Origin: Spirulina subsalsa FACHB-351
GTDB taxonomy: Bacteria > Cyanobacteriota > Cyanobacteriia > Cyanobacteriales > Spirulinaceae
NCBI RefSeq assembly: GCF_026130165.1
Contig: NZ_JAIHOM010000056.1
Span: forward strand, 1-33,142
Direction: 5' to 3'
DNA length: 33,142 nt
The position numbers and the translations under genes were made by a program. The number at the start of each line of letters is the position of its first letter. Within the stretch, counting starts at the first letter, position 1. Below the pieces are notes generated by a model. It was not told the origin of the DNA. It searched no databases and saw only the letters and a program-made list of their open reading frames with translations. Below, in pieces: positions 1 through 16,692 of this stretch.

Positions 1-110
1 CCATTATAACACACTTAATAAAACTGGCAAGGCTCATTAAGTGTTGACGCTTCGCGGGTTACATACTGTTTTTCTTTTCATCCCCGTCCTAAAGTATCGG
101 GGCTTTCAAG
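1..110 (+). mobile_element. Probable IS200/IS605-like right-end remnant
   Basis: A short hairpin (CCCCG at 82-86 pairing with CGGGG at 98-102, loop containing CCTAAAG) is followed by TTTCAAG at 104-110. Small GC-rich hairpins with a CCTAAAGG-type loop and a nearby TCAA cleavage tetranucleotide are typical of IS200/IS605 ends. The hairpin supplies the last residues and stop codon of the broken cas4. No transposase ORF is visible in the remaining 80 bases, so any tnpA or tnpB would lie to the left of the window. The family assignment is inference from the hairpin and the junction with cas4. Confidence 0.4.
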
Positions 111-458
111 AAAACATGATCGGTAAAGCTGGATACTATTCGCCAGACGTTGGCGGCGGGGGCCAGATTTGTACTCTACGGGATAGGGGAGATCATCCTC
201 TCCAAACTCCACCACATCGGCAATTCCCCGCCATTGGTATTTATGGGAGCAAAGAGAAAGCGATCGCTCCACCCGCACCCCATCCACCACCTCACTGGTA
301 GCAGAATCCGCCCGCTCATGAACCCGATGTCCCCGCAATGTATAAATATTATCCTCAAAGGTTTGTTCAACATGAATTAAGGCACATTGACGGGGACAAA
401 AAACATAATGTTGTAACACACTAATCCACAGATAATCCTCAGTATTTTGTTCACTCAT
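78..458 (-). pseudogene. cas4: Truncated CRISPR-associated nuclease Cas4 (type I-C)
   Basis: The 126-aa product from ATG 458 matches the N-terminal half of type I-C Cas4, a RecB-like nuclease that trims prespacers with Cas1-Cas2. Visible are the first cysteine motif FCPRQC (about residues 20-25), the RGIADVVEF strand with D81, and the VEYKSG strand carrying E95 and K97 of the PD-(D/E)XK site. Similarity ends near IQL (residues 109-111). The remaining residues read into an IS-like hairpin and stop. The C-terminal half, including the three cysteines that complete the Fe-S cluster, is missing; full-length relatives are about 200 aa. A longer frame reaches 530, but its first 24 residues read through a GTAGGTTGGGT repeat, so 458 is preferred. 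It is last in the cas operon, where cas1 and cas2 would normally follow. Probably non-functional in adaptation. Confidence 0.85.
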
Positions 459-503
459 CGCTATTCCGTAGGTTGACAATTTTCTAGATATGAAGCGAGG
501 GAT

Positions 504-535
504 GTTGGGTTTCGCTCCCGCTCCACCCAACCTAC
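504..535 (-). repeat. GTAGGTTGGGT-type interspersed palindrome, copy 1
   Basis: Read on the minus strand, this is GTAGGTTGGGT, then a GC-rich loop, then AACCCAAC, a widespread cyanobacterial intergenic repeat with complementary ends. It sits between cas7c and cas4. A fragment (GTAGGTTG) recurs at 469-476, just upstream of the cas4 start. It may form a hairpin in the operon mRNA. Confidence 0.8.
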
Positions 536-583
536 AGATCCCTAACGATAACCTCCCCTTGGCGATTTTCTATAACCCGCCAA

Positions 584-1708
584 TTAAACTAACTCCGTTA
601 ATGTCACCCCCTCGGGTAAATCATCCTGATTGACTACCACCTCATAATCCTTAAACGAGCGAGGCGTATTATTTGGAGACTCCACTGTAATCCGATCAAA
701 TAATTGATGAGCCGGAGCATTTCCTAACCGCTTGTCATGGGAAAAAATATACAATCCCCGTAACGCCATCAACCCTCGACTCGCGCTCCGATCTAACTCC
801 CACATCCCTTGAATCGCCTGCCAAAATAAAGCTAAATCCTCCTCCGTTACCCCCGTTTGTTGTGCCAAAAATGGCGAAAAGAACCCAAAACCTCGATACA
901 AACCATAGGGAATTTGCGTTTTCCGTCCCATGGTTTGTAAATTAACCCGATCCTCCTTCGCCTCCGTAACAGCCATGCGGGTAATCGACCAATCCAAGGG
1001 CAAAACCGGATCAATGGAACGAGCAAAAGTTAACTGCACCGGCCCCCGCACCTGACCCGCATTTAACCCCGTACTCATGACTGCTCCAAACATTCGCACA
1101 TCATAAAAATTAGCACACATCCACTGTTTAGCCGTCTCGATATTTTTACCCGTTTTTGCAGGCTTGCCTGATTTTTTCACCAAAGCCTCAACAAATTTTT
1201 TCGCTACTTTCCAATCGCTAAATTCCTCCAAATCCTTATACTCTTCCTTCAATTCATCAGTAGAAAGTTCCCCACTATAAGTCAAAGTAGAAACAACATT
1301 ATCCCCTTCCTCTTCATCTTCAATGGCAAAAGCTGAAGGTAATTCATCGGCTAAATTACGCAAAGCTGTAAGGACTTTTTCCTCTTTAATCACCTCAGAA
1401 ACAGGTTCACTCACAGGCAAACCTGAACCAACATAAGCCCGGCGAATTTGCTCATTAAGAACCCCGTGGTGTTCCACAAAAATTTTCAGCCGCTCTTTTT
1501 CCGCTTCCGTTGCTTCATACTCACTATAAACTTCAACATAATTCCGCACCTTCCGTTTTAAACAAACATCCGTCACCAAACCCTGCATGGTTTCTGCATC
1601 AGTCCGAGGTAAATTACCCCCATCCGGGTCCCCATTGGGGTTGCCATCCAACACATCAAAAAGCAAAACAAAATCATGACGGCGGTTTGGATCGGTATAA
1701 ATAGACAT
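584..1708 (-). CDS. cas7c: CRISPR type I-C Cascade backbone protein Cas7c (Csd2)
   Basis: Cas7c polymerises along the crRNA to form the backbone of the type I-C surveillance complex. The N-terminus (HDFVLLFDVLDGNPNGDPD) is the hallmark of the Csd2/Csh2 family, and the ARSIDPVLPLDWSITRMAV and QTMGRKTQIPYGLYRG stretches in the second half are also family-typical. I start at ATG 1708: a GAGGAAAG ribosome-binding site lies about 7 bases upstream, and the upstream extension of the frame (to 1792) translates a repeat element. The product is 374 aa, somewhat longer than many family members, with an acidic central insertion at about residues 110-175. It follows cas8c by about 160 bases, a gap largely taken up by a repeat. 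Confidence 0.95.
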   Translation of the reverse strand: MSIYTDPNRRHDFVLLFDVLDGNPNGDPDGGNLPRTDAETMQGLVTDVCLKRKVRNYVEVYSEYEATEAEKERLKIFVEHHGVLNEQIRRAYVGSGLPVSEPVSEVIKEEKVLTALRNLADELPSAFAIEDEEEGDNVVSTLTYSGELSTDELKEEYKDLEEFSDWKVAKKFVEALVKKSGKPAKTGKNIETAKQWMCANFYDVRMFGAVMSTGLNAGQVRGPVQLTFARSIDPVLPLDWSITRMAVTEAKEDRVNLQTMGRKTQIPYGLYRGFGFFSPFLAQQTGVTEEDLALFWQAIQGMWELDRSASRGLMALRGLYIFSHDKRLGNAPAHQLFDRITVESPNNTPRSFKDYEVVVNQDDLPEGVTLTELV

Positions 1709-1761
1709 GGAATTTCTTTCCTCAATAATTACAAACAGTTCAATACAATTCAAAGCCTTTC

Positions 1762-1791
1762 GTAGGTTGGGTAAAGCGACAGCGCAACCCA
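1762..1791 (+). repeat. GTAGGTTGGGT-type interspersed palindrome, copy 2
   Basis: GTAGGTTGGGT at 1762-1772 is followed by a short GC-rich centre and CAACCCA at 1785-1791, the same repeat family as at 504-535. It lies in the cas8c-cas7c intergenic gap, upstream of the cas7c ribosome-binding site. Confidence 0.8.
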
Positions 1792-1869
1792 ATAATTCAC
1801 CATTACCAACCTTTCAAAATTCCTAATTAATCAAAAAAGCTTGATTTTTGTCAAAAAATATGATATAAA

Positions 1870-2304
1870 TCAGGACTTATTTTGATTCTTTTTACTCCTT
1901 GCCTGCCCATTATTATGGGCGCGTTGATGATAGTAACCCAGGGCGAAAATACTTTGTTGCTGCATCGTAAAACTATGGGGAAAATGCCCCTGATCTGGTT
2001 GGATATGACTGTAAATTTCCTCCAGTTGCAATTGTAAATTGTGATGGGCTCCAGGCTGGTTTTTCCGAATTTTGCTGAGGTGGGCCTGTGCGCCTTGGAT
2101 TAACACCCCCATCACCTTCCCCGGTGTGGTGGACATAGCCCCGTAGTAGCGATCTACTAGGGTGGCGTTGATGTCTTTCCCTAATGCTGTGCGCTGGATT
2201 TGTTCCAGTTGTGCGAGTAGGCGGCCGCAGTGGTAGGCGGTGAGGTCAGGGCCTTCTAGGGGGGGCTGTAAATTCAATTCAGCCATCGATTCAGTTTCAT
2301 TCAT
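1870..2304 (-). CDS. cas11c: Internal small subunit Cas11c, in frame within cas8c
   Basis: In type I-C systems the small subunit Cas11 is known to be made from an internal start near the 3' end of cas8c. Here an in-frame ATG at 2304 is preceded by AAGGAA with a 9-base spacer, a good Shine-Dalgarno in the middle of a coding region. Translation from it gives 144 aa, the size expected for Cas11c, beginning MNETESMAELN and covering the helical C-terminal part (CGRLLAQLEQIQ, DRYYGAMSTTPG). A second in-frame ATG six codons on is the alternative. The function in binding the non-target strand is inferred from the family. Confidence reflects that no expression evidence is available. Confidence 0.7.
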   Translation of the reverse strand: MNETESMAELNLQPPLEGPDLTAYHCGRLLAQLEQIQRTALGKDINATLVDRYYGAMSTTPGKVMGVLIQGAQAHLSKIRKNQPGAHHNLQLQLEEIYSHIQPDQGHFPHSFTMQQQSIFALGYYHQRAHNNGQARSKKNQNKS

Positions 2305-3636
2305 GGGGATAATTTCCTTAAACGTGAGGTAAAGCTTAATGAACGCGGCGCGGGGATGGGTCATTTTATGGTCTTGATCGACCCGAATCCGCCGCACAAC
2401 ACTGGCTAACAGTTCATCGGGTAGCGGTTTCCCCTGCAAGGCGGCGAAAAACAAAGCGGTGGGCATTCGGGGCAACATTTCCTTGCTCACATCCCGATAG
2501 GTAGAGGCGGCTAGGGCGTAGAGGCCAAAGAGTTTAGGATCTTCTCCCGTGGGACTCACTACCTGTTGCGCCCGAAACCACCGACCGAGGTTTTCTCGGA
2601 CTTCGGCGAGGGTGATATTGAGCCAACTGCGGACGACGGTGCGGGCGTTGTTGGCGGTGAGGGCAAGGGCATAAAAGCGGTCTTGTTCCAGTTGCTCTAA
2701 GGCGGTGACATTGGGCTGTTTTTTTAGCCCCGCGATGAGGTCTTTCACTTGAGCTTGGGCCTGTTCATCACTGGGTTTATCTAAGAGGCTAAAGAGATCA
2801 AATCCTGTGGCTTCTTTTGTCCACCAGGCATAAACGGCTTTATCGCTGATGCGGAGGTGAGAATCCCGGTCTTTGAGCAGGTGATTGAGGGCTTTGGCGA
2901 AGGCTTCTCCGGCATCGCGGGAAATGGGGGAGGTGAGGGAGTTGGCGAGGCCGTAGGATTCAAAGGCCTTGGAGTTGGCGGAAACTAAGGCGGTGCCGGA
3001 TGCTTGACCGCCGGGGACTCCTTTAATGGTGAAGGGGAGTCGTTGCTGGACGGGGCCATAGTGGCCGGAGACTAAACACCAGCCGAGATGTTCTGCTGCT
3101 TCTGTTCCCCCGGTATGGTTTGCCCAAAATTGCTGGATGGCGGTCAATTGGGCTTTGTCTTCGGCGGGGATGACGGGGCCGCTGGGGGTCATGACTTGAA
3201 AGGTGATGACCATGCTGGGGTCGAAGTCGGGGGGGAGGAGATGGCGATCGCGCTCCGGTTCCCAGCCATCCAAAAATTTAACAATTGCTTCAACCACTGG
3301 CAATTGAGTAGACTCAGCGCAAAGACGAGCTAGATCCTTAAACTGGGCATGACATTGGGCAATGCGATCGCGTTTTGATTTGGCTTTAGGGATTCCGAGA
3401 ACATATTCCCCAGTATCAGCAAGGAGTTTGGGACTAATGCCGGAACTGCGATTAATATGGGGCAGAATTTTCGGCGCTCCCCGTTTGTTTTTTTTATCTC
3501 CCAGGGGAGTGAGGAGATCACCCCGGAGTTGACCCTCTAGGGTGAGACTAATCAGCCAACGGACAGGGGAGGGACCATACATGGCGGGGGTAGGGTCGAT
3601 GCGCTGGGCATAGTCAGCGAGGGCTTTAAGGAGCAT
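1870..3636 (-). CDS. cas8c: CRISPR type I-C large subunit Cas8c (Csd1)
   Basis: Cas8c is the large subunit of the type I-C complex, involved in PAM recognition and Cas3 recruitment. The 588-aa length and the N-terminus (MLLKALADYAQRIDP, then GPSPVRWLISL) match Csd1, as do the C-terminal LGRLLA-like segment (CGRLLAQLEQIQ) and the DRYYGAMSTTPGKV motif. The start is 3 bases after the cas5c stop with little Shine-Dalgarno signal of its own, which suggests translational coupling. The last quarter also encodes Cas11c from an internal start at 2304. A HIP1 site falls within the gene at about 3363. The C-terminal tail is rich in K, N and Q, as expected for a nucleic-acid-binding end. Confidence 0.95.
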   Translation of the reverse strand: MLLKALADYAQRIDPTPAMYGPSPVRWLISLTLEGQLRGDLLTPLGDKKNKRGAPKILPHINRSSGISPKLLADTGEYVLGIPKAKSKRDRIAQCHAQFKDLARLCAESTQLPVVEAIVKFLDGWEPERDRHLLPPDFDPSMVITFQVMTPSGPVIPAEDKAQLTAIQQFWANHTGGTEAAEHLGWCLVSGHYGPVQQRLPFTIKGVPGGQASGTALVSANSKAFESYGLANSLTSPISRDAGEAFAKALNHLLKDRDSHLRISDKAVYAWWTKEATGFDLFSLLDKPSDEQAQAQVKDLIAGLKKQPNVTALEQLEQDRFYALALTANNARTVVRSWLNITLAEVRENLGRWFRAQQVVSPTGEDPKLFGLYALAASTYRDVSKEMLPRMPTALFFAALQGKPLPDELLASVVRRIRVDQDHKMTHPRAAFIKLYLTFKEIIPMNETESMAELNLQPPLEGPDLTAYHCGRLLAQLEQIQRTALGKDINATLVDRYYGAMSTTPGKVMGVLIQGAQAHLSKIRKNQPGAHHNLQLQLEEIYSHIQPDQGHFPHSFTMQQQSIFALGYYHQRAHNNGQARSKKNQNKS

Positions 3637-3639
3637 GAT

Positions 3640-4335
3640 TTAAAGGGGTTGAGGGGGGATGGTGAGGATGCCTTGTTCTAAACGGGCTGCGAAGAAGCGA
3701 GGGCGGGCATTCCCGGAGATGATGCGACGGCCTTGGGCATCTTGTTGACGGTATTGAATGGAGCCTTTGGGGGCGGGCTGAAATTCAAGGTCATAGAGCA
3801 TTAAGCCCAGTTCATCGCTGCGATTAATGGCTTGTTCTTGTCCGGTGGGGGGTTCAAAGAAGGCGCTAAATTCCCGGGTGCCGAAGTAGGGCTGATGGTG
3901 GCATTGACCGCGCTGCACTCGACGACGGAATTGGTCGCGATATTTGGCGATGTTCTCCGTAGCGTGGGCTTTTAAATAAATCTGGGCTTCGATGAGATAG
4001 GCGACATTGCGTAGACCGAGGGTATGACGTTGAGCGCGATCGCCATCGGCAAAATACCCCCCGACTCCGGTTTTTGCCCAACTCTTGGCACTACTTTCAC
4101 TCTGGCAGTTATTCACTTCATTCCGCCAGATAGAGAAGTGTTGAATGGGGGTGAGGACATGGATTTTTTCGATGCGATAGCCCATTTCCGGTTTCCAGAA
4201 AATGGCTTCGAGAATCCCCCGTGCTGCGCTGGGGGTGATCACATCGTAACTAATGCGCTCTACTTTAAATTCCGGTCGGGTAAAGCAGGCAAAGTCGCCG
4301 TAGACTTTAAGCGTGAGGGGTGGACAAAGGCTCAC
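3640..4335 (-). CDS. cas5c: CRISPR type I-C crRNA endoribonuclease Cas5c (Cas5d)
   Basis: In type I-C, Cas5 replaces Cas6: it cleaves pre-crRNA and caps the 5' handle. Family landmarks are LTLKVYGDFACFTRPEFK near the N-terminus, ITPSAARGILEAIFWKPEM (residues about 33-51), and a C-terminal PKGSIQYRQQDAQGRR region followed by FFAARLEQGILTIP. The product is 231 aa, normal for Cas5d. I choose the GTG at 4335 because AAGGAT sits 8 bases upstream; the longer frame would need a TTG at 4362 without a ribosome-binding site. The catalytic tyrosine/lysine/histidine positions cannot be fixed without an alignment. It lies upstream of and nearly touching cas8c. Confidence 0.93.
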   Translation of the reverse strand: MSLCPPLTLKVYGDFACFTRPEFKVERISYDVITPSAARGILEAIFWKPEMGYRIEKIHVLTPIQHFSIWRNEVNNCQSESSAKSWAKTGVGGYFADGDRAQRHTLGLRNVAYLIEAQIYLKAHATENIAKYRDQFRRRVQRGQCHHQPYFGTREFSAFFEPPTGQEQAINRSDELGLMLYDLEFQPAPKGSIQYRQQDAQGRRIISGNARPRFFAARLEQGILTIPPQPL

Positions 4336-4531
4336 TGTACTGATCCTTAACGAATGGGACAAGGAAAGGTGAAAAAGGAGCTTTCCTCTTTCTTCCTCTT
4401 CCGAGAAAGGGGGGATAGTAGACTAGGACGGTTTCCCTTGAACCGCCATCCCTAGGATTTAAGCAACAACCCAACGGGGCTAAATTTCGGAAATTTGGCT
4501 CAATATCCAAAGTTTACGTCACAAATTCCAC

Positions 4532-4604: not shown

Positions 4605-6839
4605 CTAAATAATCAAATCAAAGGGATCACGCTGGATGGGTTCACCTTGCCATTGAATCCCCACTAACTCATCATAGCCCCCTGTCCATTCCCACAGACC
4701 GGGAATCACTTCTTGGCGATTCTCTTCGTTTTGATTGAACTGCCAAGGGAATAGATTCACCAGATAAGCTTGTAAACGACGGCGAGTTTCTCGCCCCACC
4801 CGACCCTGAGAGCGCATCTGAGCTAAAATCTTCCCACTCTCCCCATAATTCACTACCACCGGAATGGTCTGATCTTCAATCAGGGAAAACTGAGCCACCC
4901 CCGGATAATTGAGCTTTTTCCGTTCCCCTTGAATCTCTTGGCCGGGGGAGAAATCCACCTGTTGATAGAGTTCTTGGAAATAGCGCAGAAAGAGGTCTGG
5001 GGTATGGAGGGCATCCATTTCTTCCGGACTGAGGTAGTTTTTCGCCACAGCGTAGGCCGTTTGATAGAGGCCACGGGGACTCCCTCCCTCTTGGGGTTCA
5101 AAAATAATCACCTGACCGCGATCGCGCTTTCCCTCTCGATTACACCGCCCGGCCGCTTGTACAATCCGGTCTAAGGGTGCGATCGCCCGATACACCACCG
5201 GAAAATCCAAATCTACCCCCGCCTCCACCACCTGAGTAGACACCACCCAACAGGGCAACCCCTCCGCCAAGCGTCGTTTCACCACCCCCAACACCCGCCG
5301 ACGATGAGCGCCACAGAGCAACGTCGAGAGATGAAACACCCCCTCACCGGGAAACTCCGCCGCTTCTAGGGCTTCTAACACCCCTAACGCATCCTTGCGC
5401 GTATTAACAATCATTAAAGCCTGTTGAGCCGACCGTGCTTGTAAATCTGCCATTAAATCCGACCAAGACCAAGCCCCCGACCGTCGGATATAATCCACCC
5501 GTTTTAAGCGCTGGAAGTGCCTCTGAGCCTCAGCAGGCGGCACAATATCCGTAATTTGGTCAAATCCTCCTACATAGGGGTTAGTCCCCTCAAACGCGGG
5601 CTGAGTCGCCGTACAGAGAACCAGCGTCACCCCGTAATATTTCACCAACTGCCCCAACACATCCAAAATCGGATCTAAGAGAGGAATGGGCAAAGTTTGC
5701 ACCTCATCCAACACAATCACACTGTTCACCAGATTATGCAGTTTCCGGCAAGGCATGGGGCGATGAGCAAACAGACTATTAAACAACTGCACCGTTGTCG
5801 TGACAATTAAAGGGGCATCCCAATTTTGCGCCACCAAACGAGCTTGAGCATAGCCAGACCGGGCATCTTCATCCCGCCAATCTTCCTTGAAGCCCTCCGG
5901 GGAAATCGCGCTGTGATGCTCTAAAACCGCCATTTCTCCCAAGGGGGCGAAAATATCCCGATAGACCTGGACCGTCTGTTCAATAATGCTGGTATAGGGT
6001 ACCGCAAAAATCACCCGACGCTGACCATATTCGCAAGCATGATTTAACGCAAACGCCAAACCACTGCGGGTTTTTCCCCCTCCCGTCGGCACACAGAGCC
6101 GAAAAACCCCCGGCTTTTGTAAGGCCTGAGCGCAACAATAATCATAAACCTCCCGCCGGACTTGATTCACGGGAGTATCTGGCACCTTTTCCATCAAGGC
6201 CGCTTGTTCATGGGCTAACTGGGCTTGGAGTTGGGGCAGGGTGAGGGGAATATCCCGTTGTGCCGTCTGTTCTGGGTTAAAATGCTGTTCCGTGTCCAGA
6301 TGATCCCCATCAATCAGGCAGGAAAAGAGCAAGCGCAGGAACAATTCAGCCCGCAAGGGATCCCGTTGATGGGCAGTCATCTCTTGAGCGAGAGTTGGGG
6401 GGGCTGTTAGATTAATCCCTGCCGCCTCTGCCCGTTTTAACACCTCTTGATAATCCGTCGCTGTGCGGTCAGGATTGCGCCCTTGGAGTTTGACCCCAAG
6501 TGAATCAAAAGCAGGTAGGCCGCTATGATGCCCATAAATCAGGGCGGCGAGGGGTGGAAACTCTTGGGCGGCTAACTTTGCCCCATGAATCGCATGGGGA
6601 ACGGACTTGGCTTTTTTATCTCCCCGATGGCATCCTTGCAAATAGGCTTGAAAGTCGGGATTATACTTGCCTAAATCGTGCCACAGTCCCCCATAATGCC
6701 CTACCGTGGGAGCGCCCAAAAGGGTCGCAAATTCGGCCGTGCGTTGGGCTACTTGAACCAGATGGGCTTTTAAATCATGCCACTGTTGGGGACGGTTGGG
6801 GGAGGGGGTATGGGCGACAGGATGGGATGGGAGAGTCAT
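4605..6839 (-). CDS. cas3: CRISPR type I-C helicase-nuclease Cas3 (HD plus DExH)
   Basis: Cas3 unwinds and degrades target DNA after Cascade binding. An N-terminal HD nuclease domain shows GLWHDLGKY, HAIHGAKLA, YGHHSG and DGDHLDTE. It is followed by a superfamily 2 helicase with Walker A PTGGGKTRSG, DEVQ in VILDEVQTLP, STQVVEAGVDLDFP (motif V) and QAAGRCNREG (motif VI). All catalytic landmarks look intact. From ATG 6839 it is 744 aa. An upstream ATG at 6896 extends the frame, but through low-complexity GGGAGTCAGGAG-like repeat DNA and without a Shine-Dalgarno, so 6839 is preferred. The gene is first in the operon. No convincing promoter was identified in 6840-7001, which holds repeat-like sequence. 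Confidence 0.95.
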   Translation of the reverse strand: MTLPSHPVAHTPSPNRPQQWHDLKAHLVQVAQRTAEFATLLGAPTVGHYGGLWHDLGKYNPDFQAYLQGCHRGDKKAKSVPHAIHGAKLAAQEFPPLAALIYGHHSGLPAFDSLGVKLQGRNPDRTATDYQEVLKRAEAAGINLTAPPTLAQEMTAHQRDPLRAELFLRLLFSCLIDGDHLDTEQHFNPEQTAQRDIPLTLPQLQAQLAHEQAALMEKVPDTPVNQVRREVYDYCCAQALQKPGVFRLCVPTGGGKTRSGLAFALNHACEYGQRRVIFAVPYTSIIEQTVQVYRDIFAPLGEMAVLEHHSAISPEGFKEDWRDEDARSGYAQARLVAQNWDAPLIVTTTVQLFNSLFAHRPMPCRKLHNLVNSVIVLDEVQTLPIPLLDPILDVLGQLVKYYGVTLVLCTATQPAFEGTNPYVGGFDQITDIVPPAEAQRHFQRLKRVDYIRRSGAWSWSDLMADLQARSAQQALMIVNTRKDALGVLEALEAAEFPGEGVFHLSTLLCGAHRRRVLGVVKRRLAEGLPCWVVSTQVVEAGVDLDFPVVYRAIAPLDRIVQAAGRCNREGKRDRGQVIIFEPQEGGSPRGLYQTAYAVAKNYLSPEEMDALHTPDLFLRYFQELYQQVDFSPGQEIQGERKKLNYPGVAQFSLIEDQTIPVVVNYGESGKILAQMRSQGRVGRETRRRLQAYLVNLFPWQFNQNEENRQEVIPGLWEWTGGYDELVGIQWQGEPIQRDPFDLII

Positions 6840-7001
6840 AATTTGGGAATAGGGAAGCAGGAGGGAGGGGGAGTCAGGAGTTGCGAGTAATGTCATTGCG
6901 TTCGCGCAGCGTTCCGTAGGAAGGTACGAAGCAACTTAGTTGGGGAATTATTCCCTATTCCCTTGTTAAGTCTAGCATTCGGTTTTTTCAGCAGACCCTA
7001 C

Positions 7002-7319
7002 TTAGAGGCAAGACTTGATCAAATCATCCAGCTTCTCTTGAATTTCTTCCATGGTTTGTTCTCCCTGACTTTCCAGCCCCATTGCCATTAATAACCGTCC
7101 CAACTGAATAGCATCATCAGGCTGCAAAATAAAGCCAATTTCTTCCACAGAATTCAAAACACAGGGCAATTTTTCTGAATTTTTAGCAGCAAAAGTAGCA
7201 TGAATTTCTGAACCTAATTTAGAAACTTGTTCTCCTGTTATAGTTAGGCTAGTGATATTACTCATTAAAGTAATAGCTTGGGTTTTTAAGGGGTGAGTAT
7301 GGGAAGTTTTTGAGGTCAT
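7002..7319 (-). CDS. Unrecognised 105-aa protein downstream of arsR
   Basis: I do not recognise this family. It is acidic, apparently soluble, with no transmembrane segment or signal peptide, and has two cysteines (in KLPCVLN and the C-terminal KSCL). The second half (LQPDDAIQLGRLLMAMGLESQ, then EEIQEKLDDLIK) looks helical. AGGA lies 8 bases before ATG 7319; a later ATG at 7265 has no ribosome-binding site. It is the last gene after sqr and arsR on the same strand, 66 bases past the arsR stop, and a 9-base inverted repeat lies in that gap. Its position suggests a role in the sulfide/metalloid response, but this is only context. Confidence 0.65.
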   Translation of the reverse strand: MTSKTSHTHPLKTQAITLMSNITSLTITGEQVSKLGSEIHATFAAKNSEKLPCVLNSVEEIGFILQPDDAIQLGRLLMAMGLESQGEQTMEEIQEKLDDLIKSCL

Positions 7320-7351
7320 AATTTTCCTAGGGTTGGATGTGATTTTTCTAT

Positions 7352-7388
7352 TGAATAACTGATTTTTTACAAAAGAATTAGTTATTCA
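7352..7388 (-). promoter_or_regulatory. Inverted repeat TGAATAACT/AGTTATTCA, possible operator
   Basis: Perfect 9-base arms at 7352-7360 and 7380-7388, extendable inward by ATT/AAT after one mismatch, overlap the arsR stop codon and precede the 105-aa gene. No uridine tract follows on the minus strand, so an operator or mRNA hairpin is likelier than an intrinsic terminator. AT-rich dyads of this type are typical ArsR-family sites. Confidence 0.5.
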
Positions 7389-7670
7389 TTTGGTGAGTTG
7401 CTCATGACAGAGGGCTAAAATTTCTGGATTGACAATGCGATAATAACGACAAATTCCATCTCTTCGGCAAGCCACAATTTTGGCAATTTTCAAGAGTTGT
7501 AAATGCTTAGATACATTGGCTTGATTCAGTCCGGTCATCTGACAGATCTCAGTAACGTTACGCTCCTCTTGACAAATTGCTGCTAAAATTTGTAACCGAC
7601 TGGGTTCACTTAGGGTCTTAAAATGGTCAGCAAGTTGCTCAAAAATGGGGGGAGGAAGGTCGGTATTCAT
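7386..7670 (-). CDS. ArsR-family winged-helix repressor
   Basis: The 94-aa product has the ArsR architecture: FKTLSEPSRLQILAAI (helices 1-2), the recognition helix TGLNQANVSKHLQLLK, and the beta-wing VACRRDGICRYYRI. Members repress metal, arsenic or sulfide genes and release DNA when their cysteines bind or oxidise. The classic ELCVC arsenite motif is absent: at its place is NVTEIC, with one cysteine. Five cysteines are present (in AAIC, EIC, VAC, GIC and ALC). ATG 7670 is chosen over an in-frame TTG at 7682; neither has a strong Shine-Dalgarno. It lies 112 bases downstream of sqr on the same strand, which resembles the Synechocystis arrangement in which an ArsR-type repressor (SuoR) controls sqr. 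The inducer here is unknown. Confidence 0.92.
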   Translation of the reverse strand: MNTDLPPPIFEQLADHFKTLSEPSRLQILAAICQEERNVTEICQMTGLNQANVSKHLQLLKIAKIVACRRDGICRYYRIVNPEILALCHEQLTK

Positions 7671-7735
7671 GACTCGATACAAAGAAGGTTAGTTTGGCAA
7701 AAATGCGAACAAAGAAAGGATAAAATACGCCATAC

Positions 7736-7759
7736 TTGAATACAGAAAAATGAATTCAA
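7736..7759. promoter_or_regulatory. TTGAAT-N12-ATTCAA dyad, candidate ArsR operator
   Basis: Perfect 6-base arms TTGAAT (7736-7741) and ATTCAA (7754-7759) lie in the gap between the sqr stop and the arsR start. The core TGAAT/ATTCA is shared with the dyad at 7352-7388 on the other side of arsR. Autoregulation is an inference. Confidence 0.4.
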
Positions 7760-7782
7760 TTTGTTGATGAGCAGATTTCTAT

Positions 7783-9096
7783 TTATCCCGAAATCGCACT
7801 CCGTAATTCTTGCTGTTCTTGGGGGGAAAGATGCTTGACTAAAGATACCCCAAATAAAAGTTGTAATCCCAATTTTTCAAACCAAGGTAAGCCCATCCCA
7901 AAGCGCATTTTGAGCATAAAATATTCTTCAAAAATGGCTTTAGTCCAATTCACCCAGGGCCCTTTCAAGGCAGTAGAATAACGGCGTTGTCCGGTGGTGG
8001 GGTCTGGAATGACGGGAACAGCCATGTATGCAATGCCTGTATTGCCAAATTCAGCGAAACAAAGGGCTTCTAGGGTGGGGGTGGTGGGTTTTGCTTGGAT
8101 AATCCCTAGTTCTATAGCAATATTGTGAGCAACAGCTACGGCCATGGCTTCAGCCATTTCGCCACTTTTTGGCAGACCCATGGGGATGGGGGTTTTTTCC
8201 GGTTGGGTTAAATGGACGCTGACTCCAACAGCGTAAATTTGGGGAAATTTCGGATGATGATAGGTGGGGGTGACGGGGATAAATCCTTTCTCAGTGCCAA
8301 GTTGAGGTATGTCACGGATGAATTTTGCCCCCAGAAAAGAGGGAAGAATCATGGCATAGTCTGAGAAGATGTGTTGACCATTGCCCAGGGTGATTCGGTT
8401 GGGGTGAACTTCCGCAATTCGAGTATTATCAAGGGTTTTAATGCCTCGTTCTTCGAGTAAAGAAACGGTGAGTTCACGGGCGTTTTTCACTCCACCAACT
8501 CCTAAGTGTCCAGTGTAGGGTTCTGGGGTGATATAGGTGAGGGTGGCTTTGTCTCGGAGGCCTCTCCGTCGCAGTTCCCAGTCGGCCATCAAAATAAATT
8601 CATAGGCGGGTCCAAAACATCCGGCTTCTGGGGCGGCCCCGACGACGAGAGACCCTGGGTTTTCGAGGAACTTTAACCACCCTTGGCGGGCCTGGAGGGC
8701 GTGTTCTGGGGTACAAACGGAGTGACTATATCCCCCGTGAGGCCCAAGTCCAGGAATCGCGGCAAGGTTGAGGGATGCCCCTGTGGCAATAACGACATAA
8801 TCATACTGGAGGGTTTGACCATCGGCGGTGGTGATGCGTTGGTTGTGGGGGTCGAATTGGGTGACGCGACTGGGGATGAAGTTTAAGCCATGTCGTCGGG
8901 CGAGTTTGGGGAGGTCTAATTGGACGTGGGATAAGGGTTTCAGGTCTAATGCGACGCGAATTAAACCGGGAATAAAGGTGAATTTAGACTGTTCAGAAAT
9001 CAGAGTGACTTGGTGTCGGGTGGGCAGTAAGTGCCGTAATTCGTAAGCCGCAGGGAGTCCACCTAATCCTGCACCAATGACTACAACGTGCGCCAT
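7783..9096 (-). CDS. sqr: Sulfide:quinone oxidoreductase
   Basis: SQR oxidises sulfide to sulfane sulfur and passes electrons to membrane quinone. The 437-aa protein has an N-terminal FAD-binding VVVIGAGLGG motif, a second dinucleotide-type segment ending in VVIATGAS, and three cysteines in diagnostic settings: C128 (HSVCTPEH), C160 (EAGCFGPAYEF) and C346 (EALCFAEFGNTG). The first two occupy exactly the positions known for Acidithiobacillus SQR, and the third corresponds to its redox Cys356. The C-terminus (LPWFEKLGLQLLFGVSLVKH) is amphipathic and suits membrane attachment. GGAG lies 11 bases before ATG 9096. It is first in the sqr-arsR-105-aa unit and divergent from the DUF302 gene. NADH dehydrogenase-2 is excluded by the cysteines. 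Confidence 0.93.
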   Translation of the reverse strand: MAHVVVIGAGLGGLPAAYELRHLLPTRHQVTLISEQSKFTFIPGLIRVALDLKPLSHVQLDLPKLARRHGLNFIPSRVTQFDPHNQRITTADGQTLQYDYVVIATGASLNLAAIPGLGPHGGYSHSVCTPEHALQARQGWLKFLENPGSLVVGAAPEAGCFGPAYEFILMADWELRRRGLRDKATLTYITPEPYTGHLGVGGVKNARELTVSLLEERGIKTLDNTRIAEVHPNRITLGNGQHIFSDYAMILPSFLGAKFIRDIPQLGTEKGFIPVTPTYHHPKFPQIYAVGVSVHLTQPEKTPIPMGLPKSGEMAEAMAVAVAHNIAIELGIIQAKPTTPTLEALCFAEFGNTGIAYMAVPVIPDPTTGQRRYSTALKGPWVNWTKAIFEEYFMLKMRFGMGLPWFEKLGLQLLFGVSLVKHLSPQEQQELRSAISG

Positions 9097-9219
9097 ATCT
9101 ATATTTCTCCTGAATTAAAGGCAATGTTGATAGGTCGGGAGACAAGATGGGTTACGGTTAACTGTCTCCTTGAGGGGTTTAAGTCTTATTTAACTAATCT
9201 ACTGACTGATAATATAATA

Positions 9220-9248
9220 ATGTTAATGAAAGCTACTGCATTTGTCAA
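9220..9248 (-). promoter_or_regulatory. Predicted sigma70 promoter of sqr
   Basis: On the minus strand TTGACA (9243-9248) is separated by exactly 17 bases from TAACAT (9220-9225). The predicted transcript begins near 9213, about 115 bases before the sqr start. ACTAATCTACT (9193-9203 on the plus strand) lies just downstream of the predicted start. Confidence 0.5.
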
Positions 9249-9318
9249 CCTTTTTTTGAGAGAGTCTGCGTCAGGGACTGAAGACGGGTGGAAAAGCCTT
9301 CTGATGGGTAAACCAAGA

Positions 9319-9348
9319 AGGTGGGGGACGGATGAGGCTCTCCCACCT
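9319..9348 (+). repeat. Strong hairpin in the sqr/DUF302 intergenic region
   Basis: AGGTGGGGGA (9319-9328) pairs with TCTCCCACCT (9339-9348) over 10 base pairs including one G-U, with a 10-base loop. AACCAAGAA directly precedes it, which is the complement of the TTCTTGGTT that follows the hairpin at the right edge of the window. It may therefore be a decayed IS200/IS605-like end. It separates the two divergent promoters. Confidence 0.5.
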
Positions 9349-9425
9349 GGCGTAGCCGAGGTAGGGGAATGCGTCGCTAATTTTGTTCAAGAAGGCGAGT
9401 GATCAAAAATTGATTATAAAACCTA

Positions 9426-9454
9426 TTGACTAATCTACTAATTGGTTATATAAA
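9426..9454 (+). promoter_or_regulatory. Predicted sigma70 promoter of the DUF302 gene
   Basis: TTGACT (9426-9431), a 17-base spacer and TATAAA (9449-9454) form a near-consensus promoter. ACTAATCTACT (9429-9439) overlaps the end of the -35 box and the spacer, and recurs in the sqr promoter region. The predicted start at about 9461 coincides with the first ATG, so translation probably begins downstream at 9512. Confidence 0.6.
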
Positions 9455-9511
9455 TTAATTATGGACTCTGTTGAGTCTAATCAAACTGACAACACCAAGA
9501 CTTTCTCCTCT

Positions 9512-9904
9512 ATGTATCACATCAGCAAATTTGTACCTCTTGCCTTTGATGACGCGATCGCGCAAGTCACCGAATGTTTGCAACAAGAAGGATTTGGCAT
9601 CCTCACCGAAATTGACGCACAAGCTGCGTTTAAGAAAAAACTGGACGTTGACTTCCGCAAGTACCGTATTTTAGGGGCCTGTCACCCCCAAATTGCCTAC
9701 CAGATGCTGCAAACCGATGATAAAGCCGGAACCTTGTATCCTTGCAATGTTGTGGTACAAGAACACGAGGATGGTCAAGTTGAAATTTCTGCCATTGAAC
9801 CCCTCATGATGTTTTTAAGTTTGCATAGTCCCAAGGCGAAGGAGATTGCCCTGGAAGCGAGTCAAAAAATGCAAGCGGTGATGTCTCGTTTACCAGAAAT
9901 GTAA
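9512..9904 (+). CDS. DUF302 family protein
   Basis: The 130-aa product has the DUF302 pattern: FDDAIAQVTECLQQEGFGILTEID, then the conserved ILGACHPQIAYQML and LYPCNVVVQE segments, each with a conserved cysteine. DUF302 proteins are small, single-domain, cytoplasmic and of unknown biochemistry, and are frequently found beside sulfur-oxidation and thiol-stress genes. A first in-frame ATG at 9461 would add 17 hydrophilic residues, but it sits on the predicted transcription start, and the domain begins at MYHISKF, so 9512 is used. Neither start has a Shine-Dalgarno. It is first of three plus-strand genes, 52 bases before the permease, and diverges from sqr. Confidence 0.85.
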   Translation: MYHISKFVPLAFDDAIAQVTECLQQEGFGILTEIDAQAAFKKKLDVDFRKYRILGACHPQIAYQMLQTDDKAGTLYPCNVVVQEHEDGQVEISAIEPLMMFLSLHSPKAKEIALEASQKMQAVMSRLPEM

Positions 9905-9956
9905 ATTTTCCTGGAGCATTCTGTTCCTTAGATACCCCTTTTCTCTTCATTCTGCC

Positions 9957-10940
9957 ATGTGGAAATTTTTATTTGCCCTTCAACAAAACTTGATTTGGTC
10001 TATTCCCATTAGTATGATCGCGGGGATCATTTTTGGTCTGGTGGTCGATCCTTCGTTCTTAAAAGCGGGAATTATTCCTCTGACCTTCCTCATGGTGTAT
10101 CCCATGATGATTAATTTACAACTCAATAAAGTCTTTATGGGAGGGAGTCTTCGCCTACAATTAGTCACCCAATTGATTAATTTTGGCATTATTCCCTTTC
10201 TGGCTTTTGGGTTAGGAAAAATTTTCTTTCCCGACCAGCCATTAATTGCTCTAGGACTGCTCCTCACTTCCTTATTGCCTACCAGTGGCATGACCATTTC
10301 TTGGACAGGATTTGCGAAAGGGAATCTGAATGCTGCAATTCAAATGACTGTCATTGGACTCATTGCAGGATCTTTAGCCACTCCTTTCTATGCAAAATGG
10401 TTGATGGGAACTGTGATTGAAATTCCCTTACTGGATGTTTTCAAACAAATTGTCATTATTGTTTTTCTCCCGATGTTATTAGGTTTTGTCACGAAACAAG
10501 TCCTCATCGCAACCGTGGGAGAAAGTAAATACAATAAAAACTTGAAACAAAAATTTCCCGTTTTCTCCACTATCGGCGTTTTAGGAATTGTCTTTGTTGC
10601 CTTAGCATTAAAATCTCAATCGATTGTCTCTCATCCCGCCAATTTGTTGACTTATTTTGTTCCCTTAATTCTGATTTATGGCATTAACTTTATCTTGAGT
10701 ACCGTTGTGGGTAAAGCTTTATTTGAACGAGGAGATGCGATCGCGCTGGTTTATGGCACTGTCATGCGAAACCTCTCCATTGCTCTCGCCATTGCCATTA
10801 GCGTCTTTGGAACCCAAGGAGCAGAAATTGCCCTGATCATTGCCATGGGGTATATCATCCAAGTGCAAGCCGCCGCCTGGTATGTCAAATTAACCGATCG
10901 CATCTTTGGCGCGCCTCTCCCTGAAGTTGAAATGAGTTAA
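9957..10940 (+). CDS. BASS/ACR3-superfamily permease, substrate uncertain
   Basis: The 327-aa integral membrane protein has about ten hydrophobic segments and resembles the bile acid:sodium symporter/arsenite exporter superfamily. It starts WKFLFALQQNLIWSIPISM and has an internal LLPTSGMTISW segment where ACR3 arsenite pumps carry APCTAMV followed by W. The membrane-embedded cysteine considered essential in ACR3 is replaced by Thr/Ser here, and there is no cysteine anywhere in the protein. Such proteins are commonly annotated arsenic resistance protein. The lack of the cysteine and the sqr/DUF302 neighbours make a sulfur compound or organic anion a real alternative (inference). It is followed after 13 bases by the MBL gene, in one operon. 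Confidence 0.85.
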   Translation: MWKFLFALQQNLIWSIPISMIAGIIFGLVVDPSFLKAGIIPLTFLMVYPMMINLQLNKVFMGGSLRLQLVTQLINFGIIPFLAFGLGKIFFPDQPLIALGLLLTSLLPTSGMTISWTGFAKGNLNAAIQMTVIGLIAGSLATPFYAKWLMGTVIEIPLLDVFKQIVIIVFLPMLLGFVTKQVLIATVGESKYNKNLKQKFPVFSTIGVLGIVFVALALKSQSIVSHPANLLTYFVPLILIYGINFILSTVVGKALFERGDAIALVYGTVMRNLSIALAIAISVFGTQGAEIALIIAMGYIIQVQAAAWYVKLTDRIFGAPLPEVEMS

Positions 10941-10953
10941 AGAGACTCTCCCC

Positions 10954-11820
10954 ATGATTTCCTCCCTAGCCCTCACCGTTTTAGTCGAAAATACAGTGAA
11001 CAGACCTGGACTCCTGGCAGAACACGGTTTGTCGATCCTCGTCGAAGTCCCAGAACTCCCCCTGCGTTTGCTGTGGGATACCGGGCAAGGTCAAGTCTTG
11101 CTGCACAATGCCCGACAGTTAGGCATCTCCTTGGATGATTTAGACGCGATCGCACTCAGTCATGGCCACTACGACCACACCGGGGGACTCCTCTCCCTCC
11201 TCTCTCATCATCCCCCCCAACGTCTATATCTCCATCCTGATGCCTTGAAGCCCAAATATAGTCCGAGGGGCAATATTGGCAGTCCTCTCAATGAAGCCCA
11301 ACTCCAAGAGTGGGGTTGTTCCATCCTCTGGACCTCAACCCCTACCCCTCTAGCTCCCGGCATTCATCTAACCGGTCCCATTCCCCGACAACACCCCCTA
11401 GAGGATGCCGGAGGGCAATTTTGGCAAGACTCCACCCAGGAAACCCCAGACTCCCTCTGGGATGATCAGGCGCTCTTTCTGGAAACCCAACAGGGAATAG
11501 TCGTGATTCTAGGCTGCGCCCATGCAGGGGTGATCAATACCCTCAACTATATTGCCCAACTCACCGGACAACAGACCGTTTATGGAGTTATTGGTGGAAT
11601 GCACCTCCTCAATGCCTCTCCGGAACGCATTCAAGCTACCCTAGAAGCCTTAGCCCAATACCAAGTCCAGATCGTTGGCGCGAATCACTGTACCGGAATC
11701 CACGCGATCGCCGCCCTACAATACCAAGGACGCGGAATTTATTATCCCTGTAGCGTCGGAACCCACCTCCTCCTGCCCAATCTTGACAAGTTAAGGCTTT
11801 TCTCCTCTTGTCAAGGTTAG
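10954..11820 (+). CDS. MBL-fold metallohydrolase (COG1237-like)
   Basis: The 288-aa protein carries the metallo-beta-lactamase signature SHGHYDHTGG (H70, H72, D74, H75), a further metal-ligand segment LGCAHAGVINT and a late GANHCTG histidine. This set fits the COG1237 subfamily, sometimes named as the methanopterin-pathway RFA-P synthase relative, whose bacterial role is unsettled. It begins 13 bases after the permease stop and should be co-transcribed with it and DUF302. It is not the persulfide dioxygenase type by motif spacing, although the sulfide context makes a thiol ester or persulfide-type substrate worth considering. The last 13 codons are formed by a palindromic repeat (CTTGACAAG...CTTGTCAAG), so the natural C-terminus may have been altered. 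Confidence 0.88.
   Translation: MISSLALTVLVENTVNRPGLLAEHGLSILVEVPELPLRLLWDTGQGQVLLHNARQLGISLDDLDAIALSHGHYDHTGGLLSLLSHHPPQRLYLHPDALKPKYSPRGNIGSPLNEAQLQEWGCSILWTSTPTPLAPGIHLTGPIPRQHPLEDAGGQFWQDSTQETPDSLWDDQALFLETQQGIVVILGCAHAGVINTLNYIAQLTGQQTVYGVIGGMHLLNASPERIQATLEALAQYQVQIVGANHCTGIHAIAALQYQGRGIYYPCSVGTHLLLPNLDKLRLFSSCQG
11782..11815. repeat. CTTGACAAG/CTTGTCAAG inverted repeat at gene end
   Basis: Perfect 9-base arms (11782-11790 and 11807-11815) lie inside the last codons of the MBL gene. A degenerate second copy follows (TTTGACCAG, then TTGTCAAG) between about 11842 and 11877, and TTGACAA occurs again at 11901. Together they look like a short tandem array of related palindromes. Confidence 0.7.
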
Positions 11821-15375: not shown

Positions 15376-16692
15376 ATGAGAATTGTGGCTTATCTCTATA
15401 GCAACCTGTTGTTAGAAACGCCCCCAGAGGAGGAGATTTGGGGGCTGGAAGTGGATCAGGTTTATCAGGATGTGGGGATGGGGGAGTCTCGGCCACAACT
15501 GGAGAGTTTATTAGAGGAGAGTGGGATTAATCCACCCGATTATCTACTGGTGCGACGCTTGGCGGAGTTAGGAGAGGACTTAGAAAGTGTGGGTCGTGCG
15601 ATCGCCCTTTTAGAAAGCTACGGCGTGGAAATCATCGTCACCGAAGACGTTTACACCACCTCCTCCCCTCCCCCCAAAGCCGCCTTACTGCAACTGTTAG
15701 CCCACCTGCAACGAGAACAACGGAGTCGTCGTCTACGGCAAGGTCACGCCCGCAACCGTCTCCAAGCCCTGCCTCCACCCGGAAAAGCCCCCTATGGCTA
15801 CCGTCGGGGCAAAGACCGCTATATTTTAGACCGTAGCACCGCCCCCGTGGTCAAAGACTTTTTTGAACGCTTTCTGCTCTTTGGTTCCCTGCGCGGTGCC
15901 GTGCGGTATCTTGAGAAAAAATACGGCAAAAAAATTGCCGTTTCCACCGGAAGACGCTGGTTAACCCATCCCGTCTATCGGGGCGATACCGCCTACCGCA
16001 ACGGCGAGATTATCCCCCAAACCCACACCCCCCTAATTTCCTCCGAAGAAGCCGCCCAGATTGACCGTTTATTGCGTCGTAACCGCCCTTTAGCCCCCCG
16101 CAGCGCCAGCGCCCCCCGTTCCCTAGCGGGTTTAGTCTTCTGTTCCCATTGTCAATCCCCCACCACCATCACCCGCGTTACAAGTCGGGGCAAGTCCTCA
16201 GAGTATCTCTATTTACGCCCCCTCCACTGTCCCCAGCACCCCAAGTGTAAAGCCTTCCCCTATCAGGAAATTCTCAAATTCACAATTCAGCGCATTTGTC
16301 AAGACCTTCCCGCCGCCATTGCCGCCGCCCAAAGCACAGCCCCCCCCAGCCCAAAAGCCGCCATTCAAGGGGACATTGCCCGCAAGGAGGAGATATTAGC
16401 CCAACTGACCCAACTCGAAGCGACGGGGATTTTAGATCGAGATACGGCCAATTGGCGACGGTATCAGTTACGGAACGAAATCGCCCAACACCAAGCCCAA
16501 TTAGCCCAACTGCCTCCGGAAAACCTACAAAATATTGCCCAAGCTGTATCCTTGCCCCAGTTTTGGCTTGATTTATCCGAGGCCGAACGTCGTTTTTATT
16601 TCCGGGAATTCTTGGAGCAGATTGAGGTAGTGCGGGGAGAAAATGGGGCGTGGGAGGTGGAATTACTGTTTATTTTCCGTCGAATTCCCTAG
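15376..16692 (+). CDS. XisF-like large serine recombinase family protein
   Basis: The 438-aa protein has a resolvase-like N-terminus with a candidate nucleophile Ser9 (AYLYSNLLLE), a YLLVRRLAELGEDLESV segment aligning with the RLDRLGR region of resolvases, a recombinase domain (GKAPYGYRRGKDRYILDRS), a zinc-ribbon with CSHC and CPQHPKC (about residues 254-296) and a helical C-terminus rich in Q and A. It resembles XisF, which excises the fdxN element in heterocystous cyanobacteria. Several positions that are Arg/Asp in model resolvases differ here. No obvious attachment sites or excisable element were seen next to it. It follows the VOC gene by 9 bases, which is unusual for an element-borne recombinase. 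Confidence 0.85.
   Translation: MRIVAYLYSNLLLETPPEEEIWGLEVDQVYQDVGMGESRPQLESLLEESGINPPDYLLVRRLAELGEDLESVGRAIALLESYGVEIIVTEDVYTTSSPPPKAALLQLLAHLQREQRSRRLRQGHARNRLQALPPPGKAPYGYRRGKDRYILDRSTAPVVKDFFERFLLFGSLRGAVRYLEKKYGKKIAVSTGRRWLTHPVYRGDTAYRNGEIIPQTHTPLISSEEAAQIDRLLRRNRPLAPRSASAPRSLAGLVFCSHCQSPTTITRVTSRGKSSEYLYLRPLHCPQHPKCKAFPYQEILKFTIQRICQDLPAAIAAAQSTAPPSPKAAIQGDIARKEEILAQLTQLEATGILDRDTANWRRYQLRNEIAQHQAQLAQLPPENLQNIAQAVSLPQFWLDLSEAERRFYFREFLEQIEVVRGENGAWEVELLFIFRRIP

Follow-up and report, generated by a model that had tools for sequence, protein, structure and literature searches.

The closest described relative of the locus treated here is the suo system of Synechocystis sp. PCC 6803, in which suoS-suoR and suoC-suoT are arranged divergently. 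According to a review, both arms are repressed by SuoR, which binds at their common promoter region; SuoT functions in the transport of arsenite, and for SuoC no function is known (PMC4307280). For Geitlerinema sp. PCC 9228, the accessible text describes an ArsR gene with each sqr gene, an arsB gene downstream of sqr1 in a different operon, and a DUF302 gene on another scaffold, and it notes for other genomes that sqr lies near special copies of psbA (PMC5061849). The locus analyzed in this study occupies positions 7002 to 11,820 of a 33,142-nucleotide stretch of Spirulina subsalsa FACHB-351 DNA (contig NZ_JAIHOM010000056.1; the whole stretch is hereafter the window), where genes for a sulfide:quinone oxidoreductase (SQR), an ArsR regulator and a 105-residue protein (X) face away from genes for a DUF302 protein, a permease and a metallo-beta-lactamase-fold hydrolase (MBL). 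On balance, it is probable that this locus is a sulfide-responsive permease variant of the cyanobacterial suo regulon, operating by the mechanism set out below.

The suo genes, which Nagy et al. 2014 are said to have found induced by sulfide and arsenite, lie on pSYSM (NC_005229) in the same divergent plan, with chrA and DUF302 genes opposite SQR and ArsR genes (identities in Table 1). In the window, a type I SQR gene is followed by an arsR gene, the divergent DUF302 gene has the orientation of suoC, and a predicted regulator site lies in the shared promoter region. A ChrA-type suoT is lacking, and the locus is therefore a variant rather than a full suo member. An earlier reading of this DNA, made from the sequence only, had proposed an undescribed system; this proposal falls, as suoS-suoR and suoC-suoT have the same plan and the DUF302 gene corresponds to suoC.

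A shared operator on both arms

Half-sites of an operator, ATATAACTAnnTAGTTATAT, are common to 22 sqr-DUF302 intergenic regions, that of the window included. Two operator 8-mers each occur in 16 of the 22 regions and in at most six in 20 base shuffles. A matrix was trained on 18 of these regions, with the window and L050, L088 and L099 (near copies) left out; the shared region of Synechocystis suo, which carries the same operator type, was one of the training regions. Across the 33-kb window, the top match of this matrix was 9432-9451 on the DUF302 side, with a score of 17.6; the next independent match reached 9.3. The other operator copy, at 9191-9217, lies beside a minus-strand promoter-like pair (9220-9248) and overlaps a plus-strand pair (9190-9218). 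With up to three mismatches allowed, a pattern derived from both copies matched only these two places in the 5.26-Mb genome and nothing in the control. A degenerate form of the pattern gave four matches in the same genome against seven in the control and therefore defines no genome-wide regulon.

The matrix was then applied to 27 held-out sqr upstream regions, which include L050, closely similar to a training region, and exclude L072 with its truncated sqr. Sixteen scored at least 16, a score expected 0.011 times per region (12 matches in 516,644 background positions), and the site was the best of its locus in 18. In five fresh genomes, comprising all sqr genomes of a later search that were absent from the first sample, the top match of the locus lay just upstream of sqr in every case (15.7, 15.7, 17.8, 20.2 and 27.2). 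The two arms are about 2.2 Mb apart in genome G286, and each has its own operator site. Among 29 loci scanned with the matrix, a site of at least 14 was present in 19 and absent from 10, some of the latter being short contigs. Operator sites also precede psbA and rhodanese genes in the close relatives L094, L098 and L103; in L082 and L113 they stand before YeeE-type genes. The occurrence of the same operator on both arms, with exceptions, thus supports their membership in one regulon, as judged from sequence. An inverted repeat at about 7352-7395, between arsR and X, carries operator-like half-sites and may be an operator or a terminator; none of the 15 best matrix matches falls there.

Linkage and distribution

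This SQR was found in 35 of 386 cyanobacterial genomes and the permease in 12, a thirteenth (G007, 33% identity) having been dropped. Eleven of the 12 permease genomes have sqr (Fisher 8e-12, an indicative value that ignores the kinship of the genomes), and the two genes lie within 6 kb of each other in nine of these 11, the window included. The two arms are thus linked in other genomes, and a lack of conserved linkage, named in the sequence-only reading as one finding that would refute it, was not observed. The 34 other sqr neighborhoods contain DUF302 in seven cases and the permease in eight, plus one permease fragment; DUF302 and permease genes are divergent to sqr in three of the five further genomes.

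A scan of named genomes yielded at least 561 confirmed permease loci, the best 80 of which (29 cyanobacterial and 51 other, by record title) were compared, with neighbors counted by gene clusters on contigs of which many are short. The cyanobacterial loci contain SQR (21), DUF302 (19), Rieske (17), rhodanese (14) and psbA (6) genes. The non-cyanobacterial loci contain rhodanese in six cases and an SQR-like protein in one (28% identity). Sulfide islands contain rhodanese, YgaP-like TM, TauE and Sulf_transp/DUF6691 proteins. In L094, L098 and L103 (Leptolyngbya PCC 7375, Adonisia and Heron Island J), psbA, Rieske petC, rhodanese, TauE and a persulfide dioxygenase (PDO)-like MBL lie near the permease; this island MBL has a Lactamase_B match only, and "PDO-like" is our own reading.

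Layout of the locus

All six open reading frames (ORFs) named in the sequence-only reading are present, with families as assigned there (Table 1). That reading had also described well-formed promoters. Two promoter-like pairs, the best of the region at 10 of 12 matches, do stand back to back at 9190-9248, but such matches are no commoner in the region than in shuffles (seven against a mean of 7.4, standard deviation 3.2).

Table 1. Features of the locus, in window coordinates
Feature	Position	Strand	Basis or remark
X, 105-residue protein	7002..7319	-	No Pfam/NCBIfam match; small sqr-associated family
suoR-like ArsR/SmtB regulator	7386..7682	-	HTH_5 and HTH_metalloreg; 52% identity to Synechocystis SuoR
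suoS-like SQR, type I-like	7783..9096	-	Pyr_redox_2; 57% identity to SuoS
Operator copy 1	9191..9217		Twin of copy 2; adjoins sqr promoter-like pair
Operator copy 2	9427..9453		Upstream of DUF302; matrix match 9432-9451
suoC-like DUF302 protein	9461..9904, likely start 9512	+	PF03625; 56% identity to SuoC
BASS/SBF-fold permease in SuoT place	9957..10940	+	SBF domain, predicted fold, invariant residues
MBL, presumably COG1237-type	10954..11820	+	Nearest structures; 13 bp behind permease

A dispersed repeat at 9332-9392, with at least nine further places in the genome, lies between the two operator copies. A cas3 gene (4605-6896, from an NCBIfam search) directly adjoins the sqr arm; ORFs at 78-4362 are presumably further cas genes, and the ORF at 15376-16692 looks like a serine recombinase.

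SQR and ArsR regulator

The best solved relative of the SQR is that of A. ferrooxidans (3sz0, E 1.8e-88). The protein has exactly three cysteines, Cys128, Cys160 and Cys346, each aligned to an SQR cysteine of 3sz0, which bears out the earlier claim of a complete catalytic set. The SQR fold and these three cysteines place it in type I, and the structures nearest to it are, we assume, type I SQRs. The SQR tree was built without partial SQRs and without five duplicate loci; in it, the two ChrA loci fall together in a single nested group (support 91) amid permease loci. This placement suggests that ChrA replaced the permease in these two loci; it only suggests this, because many rows were collected through the permease.

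The ArsR assignment was likewise confirmed, with HTH_5 and HTH_metalloreg both above their cut-offs. Cys37, Cys72 and Cys92 of this regulator are kept in 16, 15 and 15 of 18 aligned rows; some of these rows are fragments, and two pairs of them stem from duplicate loci. These residues are candidates for persulfide or arsenite sensing.

Permease and DUF302 protein

The permease contains an SBF domain (PF01758, E 1.5e-27). Its predicted structure (predicted local distance difference test, pLDDT, 84) matches the ASBT fold in a Foldseek search at E 4e-10, and the domain together with the predicted fold places it in the BASS/SBF superfamily. The model resembles the ASBT/BASS transporters 3zux and 4n7w, with TM-scores of 0.80-0.82 when normalised by the query; identity to these transporters is about 20%, and a Gln of 3zux aligns with the invariant Arg271. 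The sequence-only reading had spoken of a BASS/ACR3 fold, of which the first half stands. Against the arsenite efflux transporter ACR3, there is a distant superfamily resemblance, but the match to TIGR00832 reaches 92.3 bits where 282.8 are required and the protein has no cysteine. ACR3 uses a membrane cysteine. An ACR3 identity was rejected on these two grounds, and a true ACR3 (421 bits) is encoded elsewhere in the genome.

The best 80 permease relatives share 58-78% identity over the best segment. Cysteine is absent from 58 of the 80 sequences, the window included, as compared with about 4.3 expected from neighboring ORFs, and Arg258, Arg271 and Asn272 are invariant in all 80. No permease ORF was obtained from L159. 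The permease tree unites 29 of its 30 cyanobacterial rows in a single group (support 94), and the Cyanobium copy stands apart on a long branch. A literature search found no assigned cargo for the family. Side features were seen at some loci: the G286 permease (L074, 8628-9602) has an internal TAG, the G011 permease (L076, 9125-12506) is split and is preceded by an operator-like site of 17.5, and DUF6858 genes adjoin the permease in five non-cyanobacterial loci (L116, L117, L121, L123 and L138).

The presence of a DUF302 protein was confirmed by a match to PF03625 (E 3.5e-24), and one such gene was found in the whole genome. Its true start is probably 9512 and not 9461, given that the alignment to most orthologues begins only at residue ~11-18. 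Cys74 is invariant in all 33 aligned rows, among them non-cyanobacterial DUF302-like proteins and at least two duplicate pairs. DUF302-like neighbors occur in eight of the 51 non-cyanobacterial permease loci, six of the eight being archaeal by record title; their likeness to DUF302 lies below the Pfam cut-off (E 0.0016, one member tested) and is also seen in profile searches and hhalign (probability 93). DUF302 genes occur in sox clusters of sulfur oxidizers, according to the accessible part of one report (PMC5037610).

X and MBL

X has no Pfam or NCBIfam match. Its homologues occur in seven of the 386 cyanobacterial genomes, all seven with sqr and five of them within about 1.2 kb of it; two further matches, in G057 and G311, were rejected as MarR-type on reading, which reduced nine matches to seven. 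The structural model of X has a pLDDT of 76, and a fold search found no PDB match below E 0.09. Judging from these homologues, X is a real small family.

The MBL gene is present on the DUF302 arm as claimed, and the nearest structures of its product are Tm1679 (3h3e) and 2p4z; we take it to be COG1237-type, with this COG number assumed. Its inclusion in the system did not hold: MBL is absent from the 34 other sqr loci and the five further ones, and among the 29 cyanobacterial permease loci it is present in three, in one of them as a fragment; it was therefore rejected as a core member. By gene clusters, it occurs in two of the 51 other permease loci, and tblastn adds weak or moderate matches in L135 and L156, so that MBL may occasionally be tied to the permease. 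A role as a persulfide dioxygenase gained no support from NCBIfam matches or the nearest structures; no ETHE1/PDO-type match was found in NCBIfam, in which the presence of such a model was not checked. The last ~14 residues of MBL are encoded by a dispersed repeat of about 45 bp (11776-11820) with at least 32 further places in the genome.

Proposed function and alternative explanations

Gene identities, layout, conserved linkage and the shared operator sequence were computed directly. In the proposed mechanism, ArsR, as a SuoR orthologue, would repress both arms by binding the two operator copies between sqr and DUF302, and it would leave both operators once its cysteines had reacted with sulfide, with the product of sulfide oxidation or with arsenite. 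SQR would oxidize sulfide, feed electrons to plastoquinone and make sulfane sulfur, which the DUF302 protein may carry or process in the cytoplasm via Cys74. The permease would move an inorganic sulfur anion (thiosulfate, sulfite or short polysulfide), most likely outward, while X may be a co-located accessory and MBL an optional operon neighbor. A sulfur anion is presumed as the cargo rather than arsenite; the repeated neighbors of the permease, namely DUF302, rhodanese and YeeE-type genes, point to sulfur. It is also conceivable, though rather doubtful, that DUF302 and the cysteine-free permease constitute a two-gene transport unit for sulfur anions (sulfane sulfur, sulfite or thiosulfate) in archaea, sulfate reducers and cyanobacteria, which in cyanobacteria a single SuoR operator would connect with SQR and, for certain lineages, with a copy of psbA.

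Several observations weigh against a permease variant of the suo regulon. As the permease is missing, at E 1e-40, from 24 of the 35 genomes with sqr, SQR does not depend on it; the single SQR-like gene near the 51 non-cyanobacterial permeases likewise implies permease roles apart from SQR, and G011 has a split permease without sqr. Operator copy 1 was recognized by its likeness to copy 2 and is not among the 15 best matrix matches. Of the 27 held-out sqr regions, 11 do not reach a score of 16: five (L041, L044, L058, L066 and L069) lie below 6 and six at 12.1-15.5. The scanned loci with no site of at least 14 are L075/L085 (one place), L078, L079, L087, L090, L093, L106, L107 and L109, even though DUF302 accompanies the permease in L087 and L107 and sqr and DUF302 are divergent in L093. 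A site stands directly before psbA in only three of the six psbA-bearing loci. In G116, sqr and the permease are on separate contigs, and no site was found near this permease. The link between the operator and SuoR would come solely from the Synechocystis precedent.

A second arm that is only physically close to sqr, by chance or by hitch-hiking in an island, is favored by the patchy distribution, by the lack of sqr in the one other searched genome of the genus and by the rarity of MBL linkage. This explanation is very improbable, considering that the same operator stands on both arms, that held-out sites were predicted, that G286 keeps the operator on arms far apart, and that linkage recurs across families. 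The locus might instead be an arsenic module in which the permease moves arsenite or thioarsenite and SQR and DUF302 aid arsenite use or detoxification. The operation of SuoT in arsenite transport (PMC4307280, in its accessible part) favors such a module, as do the distant ACR3 likeness of the permease (92.3 bits), the ArsA-type ATPase genes in seven of 80 permease loci and a 37% identical haloarchaeal protein annotated as an arsenic resistance protein. We regard it as unlikely, because the permease falls far below the ACR3 cut-off in a genome with a separate true ACR3, has no counterpart of the ACR3 membrane cysteine and recurs beside DUF302, rhodanese and other sulfur genes.

The same recurrent neighbors, DUF302, rhodanese and YeeE-type genes, argue against a permease whose cargo would be a small organic or inorganic anion required in anoxia (bicarbonate or a pantoate-like acid, for instance) and whose regulation would be shared with SQR only through sulfide acting as a signal of anoxia. 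This cargo would fit the BASS fold, whose nearest structures are ASBT homologues, one with pantoate, with weaker SbtA matches; it would also fit the conservation of the permease in many organisms whose permease locus lacks SQR, and the psbA and Rieske genes of some islands. Such a role appears improbable, to about the same degree as the arsenic module.

If the doubtful reading of a joint DUF302-permease transport unit is correct, a SuoR operator joining this unit, SQR and some psbA genes would act as a sulfide switch for anoxygenic photosynthesis. The switch of cyanobacteria to sulfide use, and a regulator shared by sqr and special psbA copies, form a question raised in the accessible part of a published report (PMC5061849). 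The operator predicts which genes should respond, and control of this gene set is directly testable. The permease family is strongly conserved in bacteria and archaea, many of them, by record title, of anaerobic lineages. A literature search, which covered few subscription journals and in which unnamed motifs are unsearchable, found no description of the permease swap, of an operator that extends to psbA or of a DUF302-permease pair spanning domains of life.

Comparison with known systems

The arsB gene of Geitlerinema could be this permease. Leptolyngbya/Waterburya-type sulfide islands contain the same SQR, DUF302 and permease families and the same operator, along with sqr, Rieske PetC and rhodanese genes and, in some, psbA. 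Unlike these islands, the present locus has no Rieske, psbA or rhodanese gene between DUF302 and the permease. Compared with the suo locus of pSYSM, the cysteine-free BASS-fold permease replaces the ChrA-type SuoT; in G085, by contrast, ChrA occupies the slot held here by the permease. X follows arsR, a position taken in pSYSM by DUF3365 and DUF3122 genes, and MBL is an addition relative to the pSYSM arrangement.

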